Shown here piece after piece: positions 5,065 through 23,488 of a stretch of DNA of 23,624 nt (within the stretch, counting starts at the first letter, position 1; every line of letters starts with the position of its first letter). The stretch is taken from positions 1-23,624 of IMG/VR virus record IMGVR_UViG_3300010430_000460. The stretch is one strand, 5' to 3'. The translations under genes and the position numbers were made by a program. This DNA is from a virus. The notes below the pieces were generated by a model that did no database searches, was not told where the DNA came from, and was given only the letters and a program-made list of their open reading frames with translations.

Positions 5065-6186
5065 ATGAAAAACAAGAAATTAAATTTAAAGAACTACCTA
5101 TATAACTTTGTTGTAGTACTTTTTGTAGCTGCACTATTTGTGCAAATTACGCCAGCTGTAGCAGCCTCTAGTGCTGTGGTAGCTTTGGCGACTGGAACAG
5201 CTTTGAGCTATGTGCAAATGCCTAGTGCTGCATTTATGGCCATACAAGTTGAGATTTGGCAAAATCACATTGAGGAAGAAATTTTTAAAGATAACAGTTT
5301 CCTTAGATTATCACACAACGCAGATGATTACGTGATTAACTCTAAAGCAGTGCATATACCACAATCAGGTGGCTCTGGAACAGTTGTTAAAAACAGAACT
5401 TCATTACCAGCAACAGTTCGTAAACGTACTGATTCTGATGTGATTTACTTACTGGATGAGTTTACCACAGATCCAGTTTTAATTCCACATGCAGACACTA
5501 AAGAGCTAAGCTACGATAAGAGAGCTTCAGTACTTGGTGAAGATCGTGATAAGATTGTTGAAAGCGTTGCAGAAGAAACCATTTACAACTGGTTAAAATC
5601 TCCAGTGTATGGTACGTATGGAGCAACTACATTGCCAGCTGGTAATGTGTTACCAACTACAGGAGCATCAGTAGCTGCAACTGCACCAAGCGCAACAGGA
5701 ACTCGTAAAGCTGCAACCAGAACAGACTTACAGTCTATGCAAACGTTCTTCAGACAGCAAAAGCGTTGGTTTGAAGGTAAAATGCACTGTATGTTACCTC
5801 CAACAATGTTGGCAGAGTTATTTCCAGCAGATGATATTGTAACAGCAACTTACATGCAAAATGTAACTGAAGCTGAGCGCAGACAAGGTGTGATTATGAA
5901 AGCTTATGGCTGGAACATTATGGTAAGAAGCTCTGTAGCTCGTTTACAAACCGATGGTACAATTTTAGCTCCAGGAGCAGCTGGAACTACAACTGATAAC
6001 GAAGCAGCTTTATTCTGGTATCAGGATGCTGTTGAGTTCGCCTTTGGTGGTGTTGAAGCTTTTGAAAACTTGAAAGACCCTCAGTACTATGGTGATATTT
6101 ATTCATTCTTAGTAAGAGCTGGTTCAAGAGCTAGACGAGTTGGATATGAAGGTATTGCTTTATTACAGCAAGCTCCAACTGCTTAA
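5065..6186 (+). CDS. Major capsid protein with signal-peptide-like N-terminus
   Basis: 373 residues, in the position of the major capsid gene directly after the protease/scaffold and followed by a terminator, as expected for the most highly expressed phage protein. The body fits capsid proteins: DLQSMQTFFRQQKRWFEGK, MHCMLPPTMLAELFP, AYGWNIMVRSS and AVEFAFGGVEAFENLKDP with YGDIYSFLVRAGSR near the C-terminus. The oddity is the N-terminus: a basic stretch (MKNKKLNLKN), a hydrophobic core at 14-28 (FVVVLFVAALFVQIT) and an A-V-A site at 31-33, indistinguishable by eye from a Sec signal peptide. In HK97-like assembly an N-terminal arm is removed by the prohead protease, so this segment may be trimmed or may anchor procapsids to the membrane. 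No alternative Met before 51 would remove it cleanly. Confidence 0.82.
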   Translation: MKNKKLNLKNYLYNFVVVLFVAALFVQITPAVAASSAVVALATGTALSYVQMPSAAFMAIQVEIWQNHIEEEIFKDNSFLRLSHNADDYVINSKAVHIPQSGGSGTVVKNRTSLPATVRKRTDSDVIYLLDEFTTDPVLIPHADTKELSYDKRASVLGEDRDKIVESVAEETIYNWLKSPVYGTYGATTLPAGNVLPTTGASVAATAPSATGTRKAATRTDLQSMQTFFRQQKRWFEGKMHCMLPPTMLAELFPADDIVTATYMQNVTEAERRQGVIMKAYGWNIMVRSSVARLQTDGTILAPGAAGTTTDNEAALFWYQDAVEFAFGGVEAFENLKDPQYYGDIYSFLVRAGSRARRVGYEGIALLQQAPTA

Positions 6187-11400: not shown

Positions 11401-11814
11401 TTTGCAGCCTTCTTTAACTCAGCTTCAGGACTCACAGACGACTTTAATGCAGCACTCGCTGAAGCACAAGCGCAAGCAGCAGCAGCAGGCTTTAATATTT
11501 TTGATGGCTCTTCATCTGCTCAGCAAGGATTAACTGGAGCTATACGTAGAGAAATTACTGAAGAGACAGGCAGTGAGCTTGTAGGTTTATTTAGAGGTCA
11601 GTTTGATATTACCAAACGTATGGCTGAGCTTACTGAAGCTTACTATGAGCGTGAGCAAGCACACCATGCCAATTTACTAGAGCTTATTGCAATTAACACA
11701 TTGATAGAACAAAACACCTTGCACACTGTTGAAAAGCTTTCAGCTGCATTGGTGCATTTGGAAAGCATTTCAGAAAATACTGAGCAACATTATTTATTGG
11801 ATTTAGGAGGTTAA
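8482..11814 (+). CDS. Tape measure protein
   Basis: About 1,110 residues, the longest gene here, following the tube and chaperone genes; it sets tail length and is ejected with DNA. By the usual proportion of roughly 0.15 nm per residue, the tail would be about 165 nm (inference). ATG 8482 is preferred over GTG 8476. It is dominated by Ala/Lys/Glu-rich coiled coils. One hydrophobic segment lies near residues 140-174 (LFSWGTALSVGATLLAVYGK) and a Gly/Leu-rich membrane-active region near 675-745 (LTNLAGGVQNLFGAF; ISLGLSGITSLLGLIGKIG). Both are typical of the membrane-penetrating parts of tape measures. The C-terminal 150 residues (YYEREQAHHANLLELIAINT) are helical and probably bind the tail tip. 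No peptidase or lysozyme domain is seen. Confidence 0.9.
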   Translation: MEKFDPIDIDFIINSEEVKADTNKIKDDLKSVGQTAEETSKKVNEQIKGAFANPDNEKAISDVNERLKEQGTIVGANNQKIFDYNKALKDITEDFSKSSLEGLDTLKNKIPQLLSEIDRLKEKNDGLTKSGEATIPVWQQVAKGLFSWGTALSVGATLLAVYGKEIAQWVVNLLKGGDAINVAKERIKSLNAALESNSFTKALQNVFQLRSQFELFNEGLLDKDIVLKKYNETLGQVAGTTDDINEAEATFQEKSDAYVKVMLYRAAATAATAEAAKQLNDATTELFRLQDREETLTQRAQDPVQTSTRTGAQFGKAFSAKKELETVEEKIKKTQADAEKIKTSFNDIIKKFEKDALNLATLNGFNLFGDDGGKKQLSEYQNLLDKLAELDKEYSRKSFTKDEEELQALRDKFDKIRTLVQRYNADPDNKAQIIDLSGLDDLQKQAEETLTYRQSTENLKDELAVQKQLFEDFENYKKTFGIDKAKEEFAGKIDAATSYYEYLKQQKLENEEAFTAVDNGTATGAQIERVNFINEALKKETDEQKKLFDKQLAQLLNYQQQRNLLIEQYNAQRLQLIAAGENDAVAELDKQHQEELDALDDANVKKLQSYKTLFDGIVGLTAKEARIVIANAKELLKTQNISAELKTKILKQIAEVEKILNASKLTNVQQYTNAIGSLGASLSQLGNDLNNSSLSNAGNILTNLAGGVQNLFGAFAEGVSTGDAISLGLSGITSLLGLIGKIGSKQAERREKARQYYLSVIAMQNQYNLSLQEQLRLQSVLDENVFITNYEGRIRDALAAILEANAAYDAAINNLIENGNITQSNSQFVQQFLGTSALDYPDLLQQSEDGIYSLNTALAQSLLDNGLINDETAAILENIIAWEEALEAAQEQIKEVISDLTGSLGTDLKNVLVDAFQSGENAAIRMGETVENVLENVLSSFVFNAIFQEAFDNLEAQMAASFGVGGDGSWIDDFAAFFNSASGLTDDFNAALAEAQAQAAAAGFNIFDGSSSAQQGLTGAIRREITEETGSELVGLFRGQFDITKRMAELTEAYYEREQAHHANLLELIAINTLIEQNTLHTVEKLSAALVHLESISENTEQHYLLDLGG

Positions 11815-13022
11815 TGTATAAACTAAACGACATATTATTATCTACTTATGGCATCATTCCAACACGAGTGAGTGGCGAAGGCATTGCTATAAAAGGCATT
11901 TTTGATTTGCCTAAACGTCATGGTGATACACACTACAGCTGGGATGAATCCAACTCTGTTGAGCCTTATGTTGCAGCTGAAGAGTTGTTTTATTCAGGTA
12001 GAGACATCCTTTTTCAAGGCATTATACTTGGTGATAAAGCCACTGTAACCACTAATCTTAACAACCTTAAAACTGCTATTAATGCCTTTAATAGTACAGT
12101 GCCTTTAGAAACACCTTATGGTAATGCTTGTGTTTATATTACAGATATTAAGGTTAAAGATTACAATGGTGGAGCTTCACTACTTATTGAGTTTAGAGAG
12201 CCTGTAGTTGGAGCAAGTTGTGGTATTAATGTTGAAGATACCATTTACTACTCTGAAGAGTACTTGGCCACAGCAGATAAAAATGACTGTCCGAGTGGTT
12301 ATCATGGCAGTACAGTAGGACTCACTGCCACAGCTGGAATGTTTACCAGCACCATAAGCCAAGCAGCTGTCAACTTACTAGCTGTAAATTGGGTGCTAGA
12401 AAATGTACAAGCCTATGCCAACGCTCAAGGCACTTGTATTATTAATCCACCAGTGTATTACAATGTACAAAAGACTGCTCAGCTTCAAAAAAATGATTGT
12501 GCTTCTGGTAGTACAGGATCTATGGTTACTTATGTGGTTGAAGCTTTTACGTACAGCTCAGAGATTAGCCAGGAAGATGCAGACGCTCAAGCAGATGCTG
12601 ATATCTTAGCCAATTTTGACCAAGCCTATGCTAATGCTAATGGTTATTGTACAGCAGATCCACCAACAGGGTTTTCAACCTTTGTGATGATTGAAAATTA
12701 TACAGGAATACCTTTAAATAGAATTAGGAGACAGCGTTTTGAGGTTGGTGAGTCTATTAGAGTTGGCTCAGTGTTTAGTTTAACATGCTTTGGTGTTACA
12801 GTTTCACACACAGCTATTGGTGCAGATACACCAGCAAGTATTGTGTTGGCATTAAAGAACATTATCAATAGCACAACAGCAAGTGAGTGGAATGCAAACG
12901 ACCAAGCACCACCAGAGTCAACCATATTTTTTCCACCTGAAGCAAGTACTGAAGGCTCAAACATATTAAAAGTTATTATCAATAGAAACTGGCAATTTTA
13001 TCATAACGTAACTAATCCATAA
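11814..13022 (+). CDS. Distal-tail-like protein carrying two tandem DUF5977-like repeats
   Basis: 402 residues; ATG overlaps the tape measure stop (TAATG). Residues 1-135 fit a distal tail (Dit-like) core: MYKLNDILLSTYGIIPTRV, then LFYSGRDILFQGIILGDK, ending SLLIEFREPV. Residues 142-213 and 214-284 are two copies of a repeat of about 72 residues sharing Y..(10)..KNDC..G..GS, then TSTISQ/SSEISQ, and ending AYANA(Q/N)G.C. This is the DUF5977 pattern known from large Bacteroidota proteins and phage tail proteins. The remaining 118 residues (IENYTGIPLNRIRRQRFEVG onward) form a separate strand-rich domain. The repeats would project from the tail-tip ring and might bind the cell surface; this is inferred. 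Confidence 0.72.
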   Translation: MYKLNDILLSTYGIIPTRVSGEGIAIKGIFDLPKRHGDTHYSWDESNSVEPYVAAEELFYSGRDILFQGIILGDKATVTTNLNNLKTAINAFNSTVPLETPYGNACVYITDIKVKDYNGGASLLIEFREPVVGASCGINVEDTIYYSEEYLATADKNDCPSGYHGSTVGLTATAGMFTSTISQAAVNLLAVNWVLENVQAYANAQGTCIINPPVYYNVQKTAQLQKNDCASGSTGSMVTYVVEAFTYSSEISQEDADAQADADILANFDQAYANANGYCTADPPTGFSTFVMIENYTGIPLNRIRRQRFEVGESIRVGSVFSLTCFGVTVSHTAIGADTPASIVLALKNIINSTTASEWNANDQAPPESTIFFPPEASTEGSNILKVIINRNWQFYHNVTNP

Positions 13023-15333: not shown

Positions 15334-16554
15334 ATGGCAGATATATTACAACTTAGACGAGATACAGCAGCTAATTTTACAGCTGCAAATCCAATATTAG
15401 CACAAGGTGAGCCAGCACTTGAAATAGACACCAAAAAAGAAAAGATTGGTGATGGTGTTACTGCTTGGAATGATTTGGCTTATAAAAATCTTGGAGCAGC
15501 TTCAGCTGTAGACACTACAAACTTTGATGGTATTTTATCACCAGCTGATGACACTGTACAAAAAGCACTTGAAACTATAGACGATTATGTGCCAGCTGGC
15601 GGAGGCGACATGCTCGCAGCAACCTACGACCCAACAAGTGTAGAAGGTGATGCATTTGATATGGATAACATGGCTGAAGGTGCTGATACTAAAATTTTAA
15701 CAGCAGCCGAAAGAGCAGCAATTGCCTCACATACATCTGAAATAGCAGCTTTAGTTTCTAGTTATTCCAGACGAAAAGCAGTAATTGATATTATTGATAA
15801 CACAGCTGCTCCACCAACAGAAGTAAGTGGAGATAGATATATACTTGACAATACAGGTTCGTCACATGCTAATTGGGATGGAGCTTCAGCTTTTGATATT
15901 GTTGAATTTGATGGCACAAATTGGGTTGCTACAACACCATTAGAAGGTTATATAGCTTATGTAGATGCAGAAGATAAAGACGCATTATACATTGATGATG
16001 GCTCTCCAGAATGGCAATTAAGAGATATTTCAGCATTCGATTTAGCAGCAGCAATCAACAGTGCAACAAATAAACCTACTCCAGTTGATGCTGATAAAAT
16101 AGGAATTTGGGATAGTGTTAGCGGATTATTAAGAAGCGTTACTTGGTTAAATTTTAAAGCAACTCTCAAAACCTATTTTGATACGCTTTATGCAGACAAA
16201 ACCGACTCCATAAGCTTCTTTGCCTCAGACCTAACAACAGATTTAGCGACTGGCGAAACATCAGGTATATATGCACCTTATGATTTTACACTTTTAAGTT
16301 ATTGGATTGGAGCAGTAACACAAGTACCAACAGGATCAGGACTAGAAGTAGATTTATTAAAAAACGGTTCTAGTTGCACAAGTACAGCAGCCGAAATTGA
16401 CGCAACAGAAAGCACCAGTTTAACAGGAACATCACCAGTACTTACAACCACATCATTTGTAGAAGGTGATTATATAAATGCCGACATTTTAGCAGTTGGC
16501 TCAACAGACGTAGGACAAGGTTTACAAATAGTATTAAAAATTCAAAAAACATAA
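15334..16554 (+). CDS. Tail fibre protein with Mtd_N-like N-terminal domain
   Basis: 406 residues. Residues 1-50 (ADILQLRRDTAANFTAANP, then LAQGEPALEIDTKKEKIGDG, then W) match the short attachment domain found at the start of many tail fibres and major tropism determinant proteins. A helical stalk follows (TAAERAAIASHTSEIAALV), then a strand-rich region with DRYILDNTGSSHANWDGAS and a C-terminal globular strand domain ending IVLKIQKT. It probably attaches to the hub upstream through the N-terminal domain. The C-terminal part has Ser/Thr-rich strands (TSTAAEIDATESTSLTGTSP) consistent with a fibre tip. Confidence 0.78.
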   Translation: MADILQLRRDTAANFTAANPILAQGEPALEIDTKKEKIGDGVTAWNDLAYKNLGAASAVDTTNFDGILSPADDTVQKALETIDDYVPAGGGDMLAATYDPTSVEGDAFDMDNMAEGADTKILTAAERAAIASHTSEIAALVSSYSRRKAVIDIIDNTAAPPTEVSGDRYILDNTGSSHANWDGASAFDIVEFDGTNWVATTPLEGYIAYVDAEDKDALYIDDGSPEWQLRDISAFDLAAAINSATNKPTPVDADKIGIWDSVSGLLRSVTWLNFKATLKTYFDTLYADKTDSISFFASDLTTDLATGETSGIYAPYDFTLLSYWIGAVTQVPTGSGLEVDLLKNGSSCTSTAAEIDATESTSLTGTSPVLTTTSFVEGDYINADILAVGSTDVGQGLQIVLKIQKT

Positions 16555-16558
16555 AACA

Positions 16559-17035
16559 ATGGGAAATTTTAAAGCGTATGAAAGCTTATTAATGATTAGT
16601 GGTAAACTACAACCACCAAACATTTTAGATCACAATAACGTAGATAGAAAAGTAAAATTCTTTGATTTGGTTACTCAAATAGCACTTGAAAAAGCTATTG
16701 AAATTTACCAAAATCCAAAGGTAATTCCAGCCTTATCTGCAAATCCATCAGAAGCAGAACAAAAAGCCTTTGATGATGCAAGTAATTATTTGAATAAAAT
16801 ATACAGAACAGCCGATAAAATTATTGATAATGATGGCAACACCTTTAGAAAATTATTAAAACTGGTAGTTACACAATTTTCAGAATTATACAACTTTCAG
16901 GTGTTTGTAACAAAAACCCAAGAAGGTAATATTAATTATTGGGAAACCAGAACCACAGAATCCATGCTAAAAGCAATAGAGCTTTTATCAGGCATTAAAG
17001 CAGATGAAAAAACAGCTTACGATAATATAATTTAA
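16559..17035 (+). CDS. Helical protein of unknown function between two fibre genes
   Basis: 158 residues, mainly helical (FDLVTQIALEKAIEIYQNPK; EQKAFDDASNYLNKIYRTAD; NTFRKLLKLVVTQFSELY), without signal peptide, TM segment or recognised motif. It lies 4 bases after the fibre gene, and its stop (TAATG) overlaps the start of the lectin-like gene. Its place suggests a fibre assembly chaperone or a small fibre connector; this is inference from position only. Confidence 0.55.
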   Translation: MGNFKAYESLLMISGKLQPPNILDHNNVDRKVKFFDLVTQIALEKAIEIYQNPKVIPALSANPSEAEQKAFDDASNYLNKIYRTADKIIDNDGNTFRKLLKLVVTQFSELYNFQVFVTKTQEGNINYWETRTTESMLKAIELLSGIKADEKTAYDNII

Positions 17036-17730
17036 TGCACGTACTTAATCCATATCGTTTAGCTTCAACTGGACCATCAATTACACCAGATGAATTATCA
17101 AACCTTGCTATGTGGTATGATGGTACAGATAGCAGTTCTATGTCATTGGATGGGAGTAATCGTGTTTTATCTATAACAGATAAATCTGCCAATGCAGAAG
17201 TTGCTGTTAAAAATGTATCATTATCTGGTTCTGTTTTCGATGGCACAAAAATAACTTTTACACCTTCAGGTGGTGGTTTAGGTGCTAGTACAAATAATAA
17301 TATCACATCAGATATACATGGCTTTATAGTGTTTTCTAATTGGGATGCATCATCAGCTTTTTTTGTTAACAGAAGTGCATCGTCAAACAGGCTGTCTTTA
17401 GGAAGAAAAGACATTGGGTTAATAGGCTTTACTAAATACATAGGAAGTTGGAATACTGCTTTTGATGACGTAGCAACGGTTACTGATGAAATATGGATAT
17501 TAGAATTTAAAGTTATTAGTAATACTCCAACAGGTTATTTAAACGATAATGCTTTAGTATATAATAGTGCTACAGGAGTTCCAACAGCGACAGGGAACTA
17601 TTTTAATTTAGGTGGTCGAAGTCAATATGCAGCTGAAACTTGGGATTTTTACGAATGTTTTATATCTGATGCTGAATTAACAACAGAAGAAAGAGATGGT
17701 ATATTAAATTATTTAGCAAATAAATATTGA
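17035..17730 (+). CDS. Lectin-like (LamG/ConA-type) tail protein, receptor-binding candidate
   Basis: 231 residues, starting ATG 17035 in a TAATG overlap. The order of elements fits a concanavalin A-like/LamG jelly roll: LSNLAMWYDGTDSSSMSLDG, then ITDKSANAEVAVK, GTKITFTPSGGGLG, HGFIVFSNW, FVNRSASSNRLSLGRKDIGL, WILEFKVISNTPTGYLNDN and FYECFISDAELTTEERDGIL ending NYLANKY. The closing segment (an 'element of the fibre turning to a short helix') is typical of these domains in phage tail proteins. There is no signal peptide, so it is probably a virion component binding surface glycans. Its TGA overlaps the TTG start of the next gene. Confidence 0.7.
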   Translation: MHVLNPYRLASTGPSITPDELSNLAMWYDGTDSSSMSLDGSNRVLSITDKSANAEVAVKNVSLSGSVFDGTKITFTPSGGGLGASTNNNITSDIHGFIVFSNWDASSAFFVNRSASSNRLSLGRKDIGLIGFTKYIGSWNTAFDDVATVTDEIWILEFKVISNTPTGYLNDNALVYNSATGVPTATGNYFNLGGRSQYAAETWDFYECFISDAELTTEERDGILNYLANKY

Positions 17731-18275
17731 AACTCCTAACCTACATATCACTATTTCTAAGTCTAAGCCTAAACGCTCAGGAGTTCTACACCTTTGACAT
17801 CACAGCAGATGCCAACTATGTGTTTTCAGAACTAGAACAAGGCTATAGCATAGGCAATGATAGCATTGAACCTTACGCAGAGTTTAACCACATTGGCAAT
17901 TTAGACTTTAAGCATAAAACCTTAGAAATAATGAATGCCAAAGTCACAATATATGGTGATACCTTAAATGTTGGCACAATTATAAAGCGTTTTGCAACAT
18001 CAAAACTAGTAGTAATACCAAACACTTTAGAAATTGAACAGCCAGTAGTTGAGGCAGTACGCATTTACCCAAATCCAGTAGTAAATTATTTTTTTGTAGC
18101 AGGAAACAATTTAAAAAGCATCACAGTATTAGATGCGTATGGTAGAGTTTTAATACAGCAAAACAATGTAAGCGAGCTAAACAAAATACCAATAGAAGCA
18201 AGTGCTGGAATGTACTTTGTAAACATAATAGATAATAACGGTTTAAGCCAATTAAAAAAATTGATTGTGAAGTGA
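17727..18275 (+). CDS. Secreted protein with T9SS type A sorting domain
   Basis: 182 residues, starting at TTG 17727, which overlaps the previous stop (TTGA). The TTG start is supported because the signal peptide begins exactly there (MKLLTYISLFLSLSLNAQ, cleavage after A17). Residues about 18-108 are a short passenger rich in polar strands (DFKHKTLEIMNAKVTIYGDT). Residues 112-182 are a textbook type A C-terminal sorting domain: RIYPNPVVNYFFV, ITVLDAYGRVL, SAGMYFVNIID and KKLIVK at the very end. Such domains direct export across the outer membrane by the host type IX system and, commonly, surface attachment. The passenger has no recognised family. A surface protein that changes host adhesion or blocks superinfection is a reasonable guess. 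It is co-transcribed with tail and lysis genes. Confidence 0.85.
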   Translation: MKLLTYISLFLSLSLNAQEFYTFDITADANYVFSELEQGYSIGNDSIEPYAEFNHIGNLDFKHKTLEIMNAKVTIYGDTLNVGTIIKRFATSKLVVIPNTLEIEQPVVEAVRIYPNPVVNYFFVAGNNLKSITVLDAYGRVLIQQNNVSELNKIPIEASAGMYFVNIIDNNGLSQLKKLIVK

Positions 18276-18826
18276 TACCTATTGAAACGCAAATAAGAAA
18301 TTTTCTAGTAACTGATATAAACAAAGCTATTAAACTTTTATATCAACACTATTACTATGCTTTGTTTGCGGTTGCTAATCAAATATTAAATGATGAAGAA
18401 AAATCTAAAGATGTCGTTCAAGAAACTTTTATAGTTGTTTGGCTTAATGCTAATAATTATGATTTTAAAAAATCTAAACTATATACATGGTTAAGAACCA
18501 TAGCAAAAAATAAAGCAATAGATAATTTAAGGTATCAAAAAACCTACAACTACCAAAGGCTTAATGATAATATATATTTAAAACCAAGTGATTCAGTTTT
18601 TAATACAGATGTTATTGGTTTAGCAGATAACGTTGCTAAGCTAACACCAAAATATGGTACAGTAATAGAAGATGCTTTTTTAAAGGAATACACAAGGTTA
18701 GAAATAGCAAAGCGTAAAAACATTCCTGTATCAACTGTAAAATCAAGAGTTAAAATAGGATTAAGAGAATTAAGAGAAATTTATATAGATAAACCTTTTT
18801 TTGTTCCAAATCAAAAGAAGCCATGA
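18272..18826 (+). CDS. ECF-type RNA polymerase sigma factor
   Basis: 184 residues starting at GTG 18272, overlapping the previous stop (GTGA). Region 2 spans about 15-90 and contains DVVQETFIVVWLNA (48-60) and LYTWLRTIAKNKAIDNLRYQ (70-89), the core- and -10-binding elements. Region 4 spans about 118-170 with the helix-turn-helix TRLEIAKRKNIPVSTVKSRV followed by KIGLRELREI. Regions 1.2 and 3 are absent, as in sigma-70 group 4. The link between regions 2 and 4 is short. No anti-sigma gene is visible beside it; its neighbours are two secreted proteins. It could redirect host RNA polymerase to phage or host promoters, including its own operon. Its targets cannot be read from this window. Confidence 0.88.
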   Translation: MIPIETQIRNFLVTDINKAIKLLYQHYYYALFAVANQILNDEEKSKDVVQETFIVVWLNANNYDFKKSKLYTWLRTIAKNKAIDNLRYQKTYNYQRLNDNIYLKPSDSVFNTDVIGLADNVAKLTPKYGTVIEDAFLKEYTRLEIAKRKNIPVSTVKSRVKIGLRELREIYIDKPFFVPNQKKP

Positions 18827-18830
18827 TGTT

Positions 18831-20354
18831 ATGAAAAAACTAGTATTAATATTATTAACGTTTTGCGCATTATCACACGCTCAATTACAAGAGGGTTACA
18901 CTTTTGAGGTTGGCACAAACTTAATACCATACTTAGGTCAAACCGAATACCTAACAAGTACAGCCTTTTCAGATGATGGTATTTATCAGTTTGTTTCAGT
19001 ACGCACAGGTAAAGTAATGCTTTTAAAATGGAACGGTTTTGAGTACGAATACAAAGGCGTTATTATAGAAGTTGAAACACGAACCGTTGCAGAATATGGA
19101 TTAATACGTGTTAATTACAATAATGGTTATTTAGATGTTTTTTATACAGAATTACCACAACGTTATTTTCCAAACATAACCACAGATAATTATTTAACCT
19201 GCAATGTAGTAGCAAGGTACAAGTTTGAAAATGAAACTGCAACCTATCAAAATCATGTAATAGGTGACACTATAGAAGATGGTTTTTTAGCACTTGGCGA
19301 AAATCACAATGGTGGTGATATTGCTTATGATGAAGATGGTTATTTATTCTCAGCAACAGGTGATGGTGGTAATTGGACGTACAAAAACATTGCTAAAGCC
19401 TTTGGTTATATTTCTGATGAAGTTTACAACAATGGAGTGAATTATATATCTATGACCTTAAGCACATCAAATGGTAAAGTGTTTAGAGTAAATCCAAACA
19501 CAGGTGAAGGTCATCCAGACAATCCTTTTTACGATGCTAACAATCCTAAATCCGTTGAAAGTAGGGTTTACGCAATGGGTTTTAGAAATCCTTGGCGATT
19601 ACATTATAACGATGGTGTGTTATACGTTGCAGATGTAGGAGCGCAAAATAGAGAAACAGTACACGCTATTACTGAAGGTGGCACAAATGTAGGTTGGTCT
19701 ATGTATGAAGGCTTTGATAGAACAAATCAATCAGGCAATGCAATTAATCCAGATTTAGGTATTGCATTTAATGAACTACTACAAGAACCTACTTCTTTTG
19801 ATTATGGTGGTTTATGGACTAAGCACGTTAATAGTTTTGATTATGGACGTAGCACCAACACAACACGCTTACCATACTTTGAAGATAACGAACTAAAACT
19901 AAGAAATGCTAATGCGAATTTTGAAGGAGCAAGCGTAGTTGGTGGCGTTGTAAAAGATGGTAAGTATTGGTTTATGGATTCTTATCGTGATTGGATTGGT
20001 GTTGCAGATTTAAGCGATACAGCACCACATTTTACAGAAGTAAACACCATTGGTAACTTAGGGCAAAATGGCTTTGTACATATAGCTGAAAATCCTTTAG
20101 ATGGTTCTTTATGGTTTACAGAATTATTTAAACGAGTTTGGAAGTTGAGTTATGATGAAACGTTAAGCACACCAGACCATGAGTTTAATTACAAATTAGC
20201 AACCGTTTATTATACAGATATAACACGCAGAAAAATAACCTACATAAACCAAGCTGCTGATGGTTTATACTTTGCTTTTTATGATTATGAAGGTAAAACG
20301 GTTGTAAATAAAGAAATATTAAAAGATGGTGTAATTATTAATAAACCATTTTGA
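18831..20354 (+). CDS. Secreted glucose/sorbosone dehydrogenase-like beta-propeller
   Basis: 507 residues from ATG 18831, 4 bases after the sigma stop. An in-frame ATG at 18801 would put ten residues ahead of the signal peptide and is rejected. Signal peptide 1-18 (MKKLVLILLTFCALSHAQ). The body matches the PQQ-dependent soluble glucose dehydrogenase/GSDH family: AEYGLIRVNY, a conserved His in ENHNGGDIAYDEDG (H159), SATGDGG (175-180), GKVFRVNPNTGE, a R-N pair in GFRNPWRL (R252, N253), YVADVGAQNRETVHAI and GGTNVGWSMYEG. It may oxidise a sugar or act as a non-enzymatic propeller; a few canonical positions differ from the family, so activity is not certain. The last 30 residues (DGLYFAFYDYEGKTVVNKEI) faintly resemble the end of a T9SS sorting domain but lack the YPNP opening. 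Confidence 0.82.
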   Translation: MKKLVLILLTFCALSHAQLQEGYTFEVGTNLIPYLGQTEYLTSTAFSDDGIYQFVSVRTGKVMLLKWNGFEYEYKGVIIEVETRTVAEYGLIRVNYNNGYLDVFYTELPQRYFPNITTDNYLTCNVVARYKFENETATYQNHVIGDTIEDGFLALGENHNGGDIAYDEDGYLFSATGDGGNWTYKNIAKAFGYISDEVYNNGVNYISMTLSTSNGKVFRVNPNTGEGHPDNPFYDANNPKSVESRVYAMGFRNPWRLHYNDGVLYVADVGAQNRETVHAITEGGTNVGWSMYEGFDRTNQSGNAINPDLGIAFNELLQEPTSFDYGGLWTKHVNSFDYGRSTNTTRLPYFEDNELKLRNANANFEGASVVGGVVKDGKYWFMDSYRDWIGVADLSDTAPHFTEVNTIGNLGQNGFVHIAENPLDGSLWFTELFKRVWKLSYDETLSTPDHEFNYKLATVYYTDITRRKITYINQAADGLYFAFYDYEGKTVVNKEILKDGVIINKPF

Positions 20355-20410: not shown

Positions 20411-20767
20411 ATGAAAGATTGGATTATGTATGCCATTCATGCCATAGGAGCAACACTTACCATTTTTAGTGGTTGGGAACTTATTAATAGGGATTTATCG
20501 CCTGAAAAACGTAAGCCTTTAACCTTTAGAGTGCTGTTTGCTAATTTAATACTGGCATTTATTGGCACAGTAGTATTTAGTCCTTATGTGATACGAAGGT
20601 ATGAAATAGTTGATATTAGCGAAATTCTAATAGTAGGATTTGCTTTAGCAATAGTGTTTCCTTTTGTAGTTCACTTAGTATTATTGTGCCTTCAATTATT
20701 GGTCAGCCAACTACCAGAAGTAATTGTATATGGAGTGAAAAAGTTTTTTAAAAAATGGTTTAAATGA
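20411..20767 (+). CDS. Three-TM membrane protein, holin candidate
   Basis: 118 residues. Hydrophobic segments at about 4-24 (WIMYAIHAIGATLTIFSGW), 41-61 (VLFANLILAFIGTVVF) and 69-98 (ILIVGFALAIVFPFVVHLVL), then a strongly basic end (KKFFKKWFK). Size, three TM helices, charged C-terminus and position ahead of the amidase gene fit a class I holin, which makes the timed lesion in the inner membrane. No holin family signature is recognised; other small inner-membrane proteins could look the same. The next gene starts two bases later. Confidence 0.6.
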   Translation: MKDWIMYAIHAIGATLTIFSGWELINRDLSPEKRKPLTFRVLFANLILAFIGTVVFSPYVIRRYEIVDISEILIVGFALAIVFPFVVHLVLLCLQLLVSQLPEVIVYGVKKFFKKWFK

Positions 20768-20768
20768 T

Positions 20769-21386
20769 ATGATAACAAACATTATAAAATATGGAAATCT
20801 GGTCATTGTCTTTGTTTGGTCGTTCTGGATTATGGCATCATACTTCTTCCACGATAGTCTTGTAGCTTCATTAGGTGATCCATCAGCAGTAACCACAAAA
20901 TTTGTAACAGCTTTTTTGATAAATATTTTAGTCTTAATGTACTTTTTTAGAAAAAGAACATTACCCTTTTTGTATTTATTAATATACACAATAGTTGGTG
21001 TAGTAGCAGCATTTTTACTTTATAATGAATCGTTAAACACATTTCCAAGATTTGAGGATGAAAATATTGCAATAAAAAGTGTTGCAAGTGATGTGCCAAG
21101 TTGGGTGACTCTTATTCTAATTCTGCTTTTTATAATAGAAAGTAAATTAAAAAACAGCAAAATTTTACTGTTTATTCTGCTTTGCCTTACCACAATAGCA
21201 ATAGGTCATTTAAGCAACACACCAAAACTTTACGGTTATTTTCAAGGTATAATGACAGGAGTTGCAGCACCAACAGCAATAATGTTATTTCATTTAGTGA
21301 TATACAAAATAGTTGACAATACACCAAACTTATCAAAAATAGGTAATTGGATATATGAATTAAGAACCAAAACACTTAAAGTATAA
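20769..21386 (+). CDS. Six-TM membrane protein of unknown function in the lysis region
   Basis: 205 residues with about six hydrophobic helices: near 9-27 (NLVIVFVWSFWIMASYFF), 44-60, 64-84 (LPFLYLLIYTIVGVVAAFLL), 112-124, 131-148 (ILLFILLCLTTIAIGHL) and 157-181 (GVAAPTAIMLFHLVIYKIV). It has no catalytic motif or recognised family. It is too large for a usual holin. Its place between the holin candidate and the amidase (two-base gaps on both sides) suggests a lysis regulator, an antiholin-like protein or a membrane-sited exclusion protein. Confidence 0.55.
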   Translation: MITNIIKYGNLVIVFVWSFWIMASYFFHDSLVASLGDPSAVTTKFVTAFLINILVLMYFFRKRTLPFLYLLIYTIVGVVAAFLLYNESLNTFPRFEDENIAIKSVASDVPSWVTLILILLFIIESKLKNSKILLFILLCLTTIAIGHLSNTPKLYGYFQGIMTGVAAPTAIMLFHLVIYKIVDNTPNLSKIGNWIYELRTKTLKV

Positions 21387-21388
21387 CT

Positions 21389-21949
21389 ATGAAAAAACGA
21401 GCCACACAATTAGTAATAGCAGCCTTATTCACGTTAGGCTCTGGAGTTGGTATTTACAACTTCACAGGAACAGACGTTACGCTTCCTAATGGCGAAGTCA
21501 TTAAAACAGGAAAGCTCACAGAGAGCTTAACAAAACATTACCAGGAGCGAAATATTGAAGATAGTTTGTACATCACTATCCATCATACAGCTGGCTCAAA
21601 AAACCAGTCACTTGAAAGCATTGCAAAGTTTCATGTAGAAATGAATGGTTGGCCAGCAATAGCCTATCACATTGCAATAAATGATGATGGCGATATTAAT
21701 TTTCTTAATGATATTGAAGAGCGCACTTACCATGACAGCGGCGAAAACACAGTAAGTATTGGCGTGGTTCTAGTTGGTAATTACGAAGAGGATTTGCCAA
21801 GCGAAGACATGATTAAAAGTGTAAAGCTGGTTACAGATGCGCTTTGTCAGTCATTAAAAATAAAAGGCATCAGAGCGCATCGTGACACGTCACCAACATT
21901 GTGCTGTGGCATTAATGCTTATGTAAAACTAAAAGACGTGTTTTTTTAA
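21389..21949 (+). CDS. N-acetylmuramoyl-L-alanine amidase (Amidase_2), likely SAR-type endolysin
   Basis: 186 residues. The enzyme cuts the bond between muramic acid and the peptide stem and so lyses the cell. It fits the T7-lysozyme/PGRP fold: zinc ligands probably H65 (ITIHHTAG), H164 (IRAHRDTSP) and C172 (TLCCG); PAIAYHIAINDDGDI and NTVSIGVVLVGNYE are the expected core strands. The N-terminus (KKR, then ATQLVIAALFTLGSGVGIYNF, about 5-25) is a weakly hydrophobic, Ala/Gly/Thr-rich segment without a good cleavage site, as in signal-anchor-release endolysins, which reach the periplasm by Sec and are activated when the anchor leaves the membrane. A normal signal peptide is the alternative. No cell-wall-binding domain is present. 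Confidence 0.88.
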   Translation: MKKRATQLVIAALFTLGSGVGIYNFTGTDVTLPNGEVIKTGKLTESLTKHYQERNIEDSLYITIHHTAGSKNQSLESIAKFHVEMNGWPAIAYHIAINDDGDINFLNDIEERTYHDSGENTVSIGVVLVGNYEEDLPSEDMIKSVKLVTDALCQSLKIKGIRAHRDTSPTLCCGINAYVKLKDVFF

Positions 21950-22346: not shown

Positions 22347-22440
22347 GCATTTTTTAGTAAGCCACTGAGTCGTGTCTGGAATTTTATTAAATCGCTTTGG
22401 GAGTCAAAACCATGAGTAAATAAGGACACTATAATGAATA

Positions 22441-22466
22441 AGGAGAGCTGTAAAAGGCTCTCTTTT
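22441..22466 (+). terminator. Rho-independent terminator closing the late operon
   Basis: Stem GAGAGC (22443-22448) / GCTCTC (22457-22462), extended by a G-U and an A-T pair, with an 8-base loop and a T-run at 22463-22467. It lies just after the last phage gene and before the converging alpha/beta hydrolase gene. Confidence 0.75.
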
Positions 22467-22591
22467 TGTTGATGTATATACCTTAAAATAGCTTTAAAAA
22501 TGTTTTAAAAAGGCTTATTTGAGATGCTTTAAAAATAGGACATCTTGTTTTTTGTTAGGTCAAAAAAATAGGGCGTTTGGATTTTGCGAAT
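22467..22591. other. A/T-rich intergenic segment, candidate prophage right end
   Basis: No gene is visible. Four TTAAAA motifs start at 22483, 22494, 22505 and 22529 (spacing 11, 11 and 24), with GCTTTAAAAAT occurring twice. A perfect 7-bp inverted repeat TTTTTTG (22548-22554) / CAAAAAA (22561-22567) encloses TTAGGT. The segment lies between the late-operon terminator and a chromosomal-looking gene. An attachment site or transposase-binding end is possible but unproved; the left partner is outside the window. Confidence 0.3.
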
Positions 22592-23488
22592 TTACATTAG
22601 AAAATCGATTTGTACACTACTTGACTTATTAAATAGGTCACTTGGGTAATGCAATAAGCCGAAATGTCCTCCAGTCATATCAACCCATTCCTTAGGTTGT
22701 TTAATCATCTCATATACTTCTTTTGTAATTTCTGGACTTGCTCCAGTCATTTCATCTTTGGTAGCGACAACCATAAGTATTGGAGCTTTTAATTGAGATG
22801 CACATTGACCAATATGAAATCCTTCTGGTGTTTTAACAGTTGAAAAGGAAACTACATTTTGCCAGTTTGTACCAAATCGACTTCCATATTCCATAAACCA
22901 ACGATAGGCCGTTAACTCTGTTAATACCGATGGAATATTCATTTGGTCTTCAGAAACAATTGGAACGCGCTCTGTAACAGTATGTGGCAAGTTCTTAATG
23001 TTGTCGGTTAAAAGTGTATTCTTTGCAAACGTATAAAGTTCTTCATTAATGTTTTTTGAAGTAGGTTCATCTCCAAATGCTGGAATTATTGATATAACTG
23101 ACTTGACCCTATCATCAACTGTTCCTACCAGAAATGCCTCACGAGAACTCATACTTGCTCCCCAAACTGCGATACGTGTTGTGTCAATTTCTGATCTCAT
23201 AAAAAGAAAATCAATTGCATCAATGTATCCTCTTGCTTGTATCCAAAAATTAATTTCCTGACGAGGTTCTCCATCGCTTATGCCAAAATTTCTGTGATCG
23301 TATAATAGAACAGCGAAACCAGCTTTTTGGAATTCTTCAGCATATTTATCTGCGGTCATTCCTTTTATTGTAGTTGTAAATCCATGAGCCATAACTATAA
23401 CAGGATGTTTTAAAGTGTCACTTTCGGGTAAATAAAGATTCCCTCTTAGAGTAGCTCCTTGTGACTTAAATTCAATATCGAGCGTCAT
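22592..23488 (-). CDS. Alpha/beta hydrolase (dienelactone-hydrolase/esterase-like)
   Basis: 298 residues, minus strand. Alpha/beta hydrolase signatures: oxyanion segment VIVMAHGF (30-37), LLYDHRNFGISDG (61-73), nucleophile elbow GASMS with S112 (last Gly of GxSxG replaced by Ser), acid D245 (VATKDEMTG) and H275 (GGHFGLL). The N-terminus (FKSQGATLRGNLYLPE) is typical of cytoplasmic esterase/peptidase-like members. No signal peptide is seen. Substrate unknown. It starts 19 bases after the stop of a partial gene on the same strand, so the two are probably one chromosomal operon. It is likely host DNA flanking the prophage, though a cargo gene cannot be excluded. Confidence 0.85.
   Translation of the reverse strand: MTLDIEFKSQGATLRGNLYLPESDTLKHPVIVMAHGFTTTIKGMTADKYAEEFQKAGFAVLLYDHRNFGISDGEPRQEINFWIQARGYIDAIDFLFMRSEIDTTRIAVWGASMSSREAFLVGTVDDRVKSVISIIPAFGDEPTSKNINEELYTFAKNTLLTDNIKNLPHTVTERVPIVSEDQMNIPSVLTELTAYRWFMEYGSRFGTNWQNVVSFSTVKTPEGFHIGQCASQLKAPILMVVATKDEMTGASPEITKEVYEMIKQPKEWVDMTGGHFGLLHYPSDLFNKSSSVQIDFLM

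Follow-up and report, generated by a model that had tools for sequence, protein, structure and literature searches.

Phage-encoded cargo proteins of the type IX secretion system (T9SS) are a concept that is already published. Cryophage encodes three T9SS cargo genes, and a hijack of the host system was suggested for it, so that superinfection exclusion, besides competition, has already been proposed as the benefit of such genes (Bellas et al. 2020, PMC7468147). T9SS domains have also been noted in gut phages (de Jonge et al. 2019, PMC6949934). Here, we describe a candidate T9SS cargo gene in a temperate Mu-like phage, represented by the IMG/VR virus record IMGVR_UViG_3300010430_000460, whose 23,624 nucleotides were analysed at full length and are referred to hereafter as the window.

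The gene (17727..18275, + strand) codes for a protein of 182 amino acids, predicted to be composed of a signal sequence (residues 1-17), a passenger (residues 18-112) and a type A C-terminal sorting domain (residues 113-182; 18063..18272, + strand). Its start codon is a TTG, which overlaps by 4 nt (TTGA) the stop codon of the preceding ORF (17035-17730), exactly as the sequence-only reading of this DNA had claimed. An in-frame TAA (17721-17723) lies one sense codon upstream, so that this TTG is the sole usual start codon that includes the signal sequence. The same packing is found on the 3' side, where the GTG of a sigma factor gene overlaps the cargo stop codon, again by 4 nt (GTGA), and these overlaps with both neighbours argue against the cargo gene having a promoter of its own. 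The Sec-type signal sequence MKLLTYISLFLSLSLNA (also written KLLTYISLFLSLSLNA), which is followed by QE, was read from the sequence and from its hydropathy, which reaches up to 2.06 across 11 residues; the structure model gives an N-terminal helix at residues 2-15 and is poor elsewhere.

The sorting domain is recognised by two profiles, both above their curated cut-offs, namely PF18962 on residues 113-182 (E=1.8e-9; 38.2 bits for a cut-off of 27; profile positions 1-75 of 75) and TIGR04183 (E=1.3e-11; 44.3 bits for a cut-off of 23; profile positions 1-72 of 72), and the match ends at residue 181-182 of 182. The motifs YPNP, DAYGR, GMYFV and KKLIVK are all present in it, KKLIVK being the extreme C-terminus. 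The signal peptide and complete type A sorting domain that had been proposed are thus borne out by hydropathy, by both profiles and by the four motifs. In a six-frame search, the domain was present once in the whole record (E=5.8e-12). Residues 113-180 also resemble, weakly (E=0.11), a type A sorting domain of solved structure (8glj_D), and an ice-binding protein (5uyt_A) matched the cargo protein with its C-terminal part (E=0.0019). The profile and motif matches are not due to chance, and by its sequence the protein qualifies as a type A cargo of the T9SS. Its export by the host system is strongly indicated on this basis, and the phage probably displays a self-encoded protein on the host surface.

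The record is a virus fragment that encodes a Mu portal protein (PF06074, 209 bits) and gp36, as well as a terminase, a major head protein and a tape measure protein assigned by PHROGs. A tail fibre-type protein (15334..16554, + strand) with an Mtd N-terminal domain (PF18454, 47 bits) and matches to tail PHROGs is also present, and the gene run is on the + strand throughout, from 3909 to about 22.35 kb. A sister contig (L021/L022) encodes proteins 98.9-100% identical to those of the record over the overlap, and its L022 part supplies the other end of the phage, with a Mu-type transposase (PHROG 310, 135 bits; PF09299), an AAA ATPase and an S24 repressor. Since the transposase and the repressor are encoded in this near-identical contig, the phage is temperate and transposable. 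Its Mu-like features are therefore the Mu-type portal in the window, the transposase in the sister fragment and a probable CA-type right end with end repeats. In the tail region, a protein (11814-13022) contains DUF5977 repeats in two stretches (146 bits). The putative major head protein (5065-6186) begins with a signal-peptide-like hydrophobic stretch (MKNKKLNLKNYLYNFVVVLFVAALFVQITPAVAAS), its PHROG 267 match starting at residue 42; this stretch seems common to close relatives, as the alignment with them begins at residue 1.

We infer that the right end of the prophage lies at 22596, 4.3 kb downstream of the cargo gene, because a host hydrolase gene is truncated there, the end is of the CA type and the end repeats are inverted. 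Indeed (i) the putative Mu-like right end (22535..22596) has an end repeat of the TAGGACATCT type, with TTTACA as outermost bases, and the sequence switches from ...GCGAATTTACA to TTAGAAAATCG at 22596/22597, which fits a Mu-type CA end, (ii) the TAGGACATCT repeat at 22536 is found again near the opposite phage end in L022, inverted once the contigs are equally oriented, and (iii) the 3' end of a host alpha/beta hydrolase gene (22592..23488, - strand) is interrupted, its last codons being replaced by the insertion. Chromosomal homologues of this hydrolase, 68% identical in three Flavobacteriaceae and weaker in two more, end in ...QIDFLNKYFN or ...QVDYLNRYFK, and the window copy ends in ...QIDFLM. 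An origin of the cargo gene in contaminating host flank was rejected, given that the probable prophage end lies 4.3 kb downstream of it and beyond the phage endolysin gene, which independently supports a position inside the phage. The attribution of the cargo gene to a phage by the sequence-only reading holds: tail genes lie upstream, the endolysin gene and the probable Mu-type end lie downstream, all within a same-strand run, and the locus is therefore not one found only in a chromosomal, non-phage context. As regards the host, T9SS domains were found in 26 of the 26 Flavobacteriaceae sampled, and SprA in all six genomes checked, of which five encode a relative of the flanking hydrolase; these genomes are of bacteria other than the actual host of the phage. 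We infer that the host is a member of the Flavobacteriaceae.

The gene upstream of the cargo gene (17035..17730, + strand; 231 aa) probably codes for a tail-tip or accessory protein. It had been described as a lectin-like tail gene; the term lectin-like found no confirmation, the protein having no match in Pfam, PHROG or NCBIfam. On the other side, an ECF sigma factor of 184 aa is encoded (18272..18826, + strand; PF04542, 59 bits; PF04545, 32.8 bits; PHROG 1740, 83 bits); neither it nor the dehydrogenase-like protein that follows in the same gene run figured in the sequence-only reading. Of 351 Flavobacteriaceae, 252 encode relatives of the sigma factor, the closest being 46% identical. At four of the closest sigma loci (L195, L197, L199 and L202), a gene of similar size directly follows the sigma gene, and a profile search at two of them (L195 and L199) identified its product as an RskA-type anti-sigma factor (PF10099); no anti-sigma gene adjoins the phage sigma factor gene. 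The next gene (18831..20354, + strand) codes for an exported glucose/sorbosone dehydrogenase-like protein of 507 aa (PF07995, 55.5 bits). Its relatives were found in 13 of 400 Flavobacteriaceae and are 32-37% identical; ten of the 13 end in a T9SS sorting domain and the other three extend beyond the DNA compared. In these chromosomal GSDH proteins, the sorting domain is thus part of the enzyme-like polypeptide itself, whereas the last 58 residues of the phage copy have no supported similarity to the T9SS domain of its relatives. A hidden sorting domain at this C-terminus is not claimed (hhalign probability of 6%, no PNP motif). Two T9SS-linked genes are therefore nearly adjacent in the phage, and only one of them bears the label.

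Further downstream are a small membrane protein (20411..20767, + strand), holin-like by position only, another membrane protein (20769..21386, + strand), both with no significant family match in Pfam, PHROG or NCBIfam, and an N-acetylmuramoyl-L-alanine amidase, the endolysin (21389..21949, + strand; PF01510, 56 bits; lysis PHROGs). The closest relative found for the endolysin comes from a Flavobacteriaceae prophage (L192; E=2.8e-61), where its gene follows those of the tail. The + strand gene run closes with a terminator-like hairpin (22440..22465, + strand), such sites being at chance level in the region, and promoter-like sites in the region are no commoner than in shuffled sequences.

The distribution of these genes was examined in a comparison set of about 120 phage loci (1.98 Mb, some overlapping), for which the terminase or the tail-tip protein served as anchor. 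No homologue of the fibre, the upstream gene, the cargo, the sigma factor, the dehydrogenase-like protein or either membrane protein was found in these loci, the amidase being the only gene of the stretch with one. A sorting-domain profile built for this analysis returned nothing from the same loci except a weak match in L151, which was rejected as the PPC domain of a peptidase-like protein. In the closest relatives (G003 and G005), unrelated genes follow the tail-tip protein. Apart from a fibre homologue in L190 and the amidase in L192, the same holds for the five chromosomal Flavobacteriaceae prophages examined, in which the cargo gene was not found beside the tail genes. Two Flavobacteriaceae prophages (L191, 8976-9050; L192, 8945-9019), which have the same tail-tip protein, adjoin the same chromosomal genes and a tRNA-Met, and these shared neighbours suggest that their integration is site-specific and not Mu-like.

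The possibility of a conserved gene of the phage group was rejected, as no relative was found in the about 120 loci or in the five chromosomal prophages. By these comparisons, and because the gene is absent beside the tail genes of the five related prophages, it is best classified as a private accessory gene and not as a conserved strategy of the group. It resembles a moron, in that it lies within the phage, between phage genes, and is missing from otherwise syntenic relatives. The drop in GC content, from 36-40% in the phage core to 27-34% in the majority of genes beyond 16.5 kb, agrees with this view; against it, the third-position GC of the cargo gene itself (0.31) is like that of the phage core and unlike that of its AT-rich neighbours.

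The passenger belongs to no family in Pfam, PHROG or NCBIfam. The cargo protein had no match in PADLOC and no homologue of known function was found, and its structure model (pLDDT 40) gives no confident fold for the passenger. A search of 400 Flavobacteriaceae genomes yielded matches to the passenger in four genomes (E of 0.003-0.01 per genome), which were rejected as being at chance level for 400 genomes. With chance-level matches and no confident fold, the passenger may be a decayed remnant of a larger cargo. Nor did any result support the roles offered by the sequence-only reading (receptor masking, superinfection exclusion or lysogenic conversion), the passenger having no relative that could point to a function.

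T9SS cargo was found in three further viral lineages, with searches that used short exact peptides or single sequences, synthetic consensus sequences serving as search seeds only, so that recurrence was sampled and not counted. In brief, these lineages include: a group of three contigs (L230-L232), whose cargo proteins measure about 770-800 aa and are encoded in the vicinity of endolysin, holin, terminase and portal genes; a contig (L234) with a 645-aa T9SS frame together with endolysin and baseplate genes; and a 635-kb uncultured phage (L179) with a 204-aa T9SS frame. Pfam searches confirmed the sorting domains of L230, L232, L234 and L179. A T9SS gene in L233, which adjoins host-like genes, was left out of the count. 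In L230 (7823-13093), the T9SS cargo gene is followed by genes for a possible outer-membrane barrel protein, a thioredoxin-like protein, an endolysin and a holin.

The explanation that we favour, with somewhat better than even confidence in it as a whole, is that of a moron-like accessory gene for a T9SS-exported cargo, which a temperate Mu-like phage carries among its late genes, in the stretch from tail to lysis functions. The cargo would be translated by reinitiation at the overlapping stop codon, mainly during late-gene transcription. The protein would pass the inner membrane by the Sec pathway, be recognised by the host T9SS (SprA translocon), lose its sorting domain and end on or outside the cell surface. 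There, the passenger of about 90 residues could alter the surface of the infected cell to the benefit of the phage, perhaps most plausibly by masking or occupying an adsorption structure, with less superinfection and fewer progeny lost on debris; we propose this last step only tentatively and with low confidence. The host-derived look of the sigma factor and of the dehydrogenase-like gene suggests that this spot gathers accessory genes.

The same look could also mean that a host T9SS cargo gene was recently captured together with the sigma factor and dehydrogenase genes, and is neutral or decaying, with no benefit to the phage. The sigma factor and the dehydrogenase indeed have many chromosomal relatives and no close phage ones, the sorting domain seen in relatives of the dehydrogenase is missing from the phage copy, and the cargo passenger is very short and resembles nothing. 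However, the three frames are all open, the packing into the phage run with 4-nt overlaps is not readily produced by raw capture, and T9SS cargo recurs in unrelated phages; we regard such a passive origin as less likely, but as a serious rival. A slightly less probable reading, which is also to be taken seriously, has the gene active in lysogens, where it would confer on the host a surface trait, such as adhesion, gliding or competition, with no role in the lytic cycle. The temperate nature of the phage agrees with it, as do the existence of promoter-like sites and the adjoining orphan sigma factor, which could allow expression independent of the late genes, but the frequency of these sites does not exceed that in shuffles and the overlapping genes leave no intergenic room upstream for a promoter.

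Two readings appear very unlikely compared with the accessory surface cargo favoured here. The protein could be a tail-tip or envelope-disrupting component, whose sorting domain would serve assembly or outer-membrane targeting at lysis, as the gene sits between the fibre and lysis genes, and another phage lineage has T9SS cargo a few genes from an endolysin and a holin; yet a Sec signal would remove the protein from the cytoplasm, where tails assemble, and no tail family in Pfam or PHROG matches it. Finally, the cargo, the sigma factor without an anti-sigma factor and the exported dehydrogenase-like protein could conceivably form one phage operon reprogramming the host envelope, in which the sigma factor would turn on a host envelope regulon and the cargo would be displayed on the surface, jointly changing the adsorption or adhesion of the infected cell; this, too, we consider improbable.

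In summary, the window shows both a prophage end and its host flank, and SprA is encoded by each genome examined in which the flanking host gene occurs. As genetic tools and T9SS mutants are available in flavobacteria, it can be tested directly whether phages use the T9SS to modify the surface of the cells they infect. Among described systems, the gut phages of BACON cluster 2 are similar in having T9SS sorting domains near phage structural genes, and differ in having ORFs with a BACON domain (PMC6949934), of which the present phage has none. The L230/L231/L232 and L234 proteins share a signal-like N-terminus, a PF18962 match over the cut-off and a position near lysis, packaging or baseplate genes, but are larger (about 640-800 aa), belong to unrelated backbones and, in L234, lie several kb from the lysis gene. 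Cryophage is likewise a Bacteroidetes phage whose accessory genes encode type A sorting domains, and a T9SS hijack for exclusion or competition has been proposed for it, although it is circular, of 76 kb, and has three such genes with enzyme-like or PA14 passengers (PMC7468147). The present phage is, in contrast, temperate and Mu-like and encodes one 182-aa protein with a unique passenger, and thereby extends the small set of phage lineages known to encode T9SS cargo by one that is temperate and transposable.
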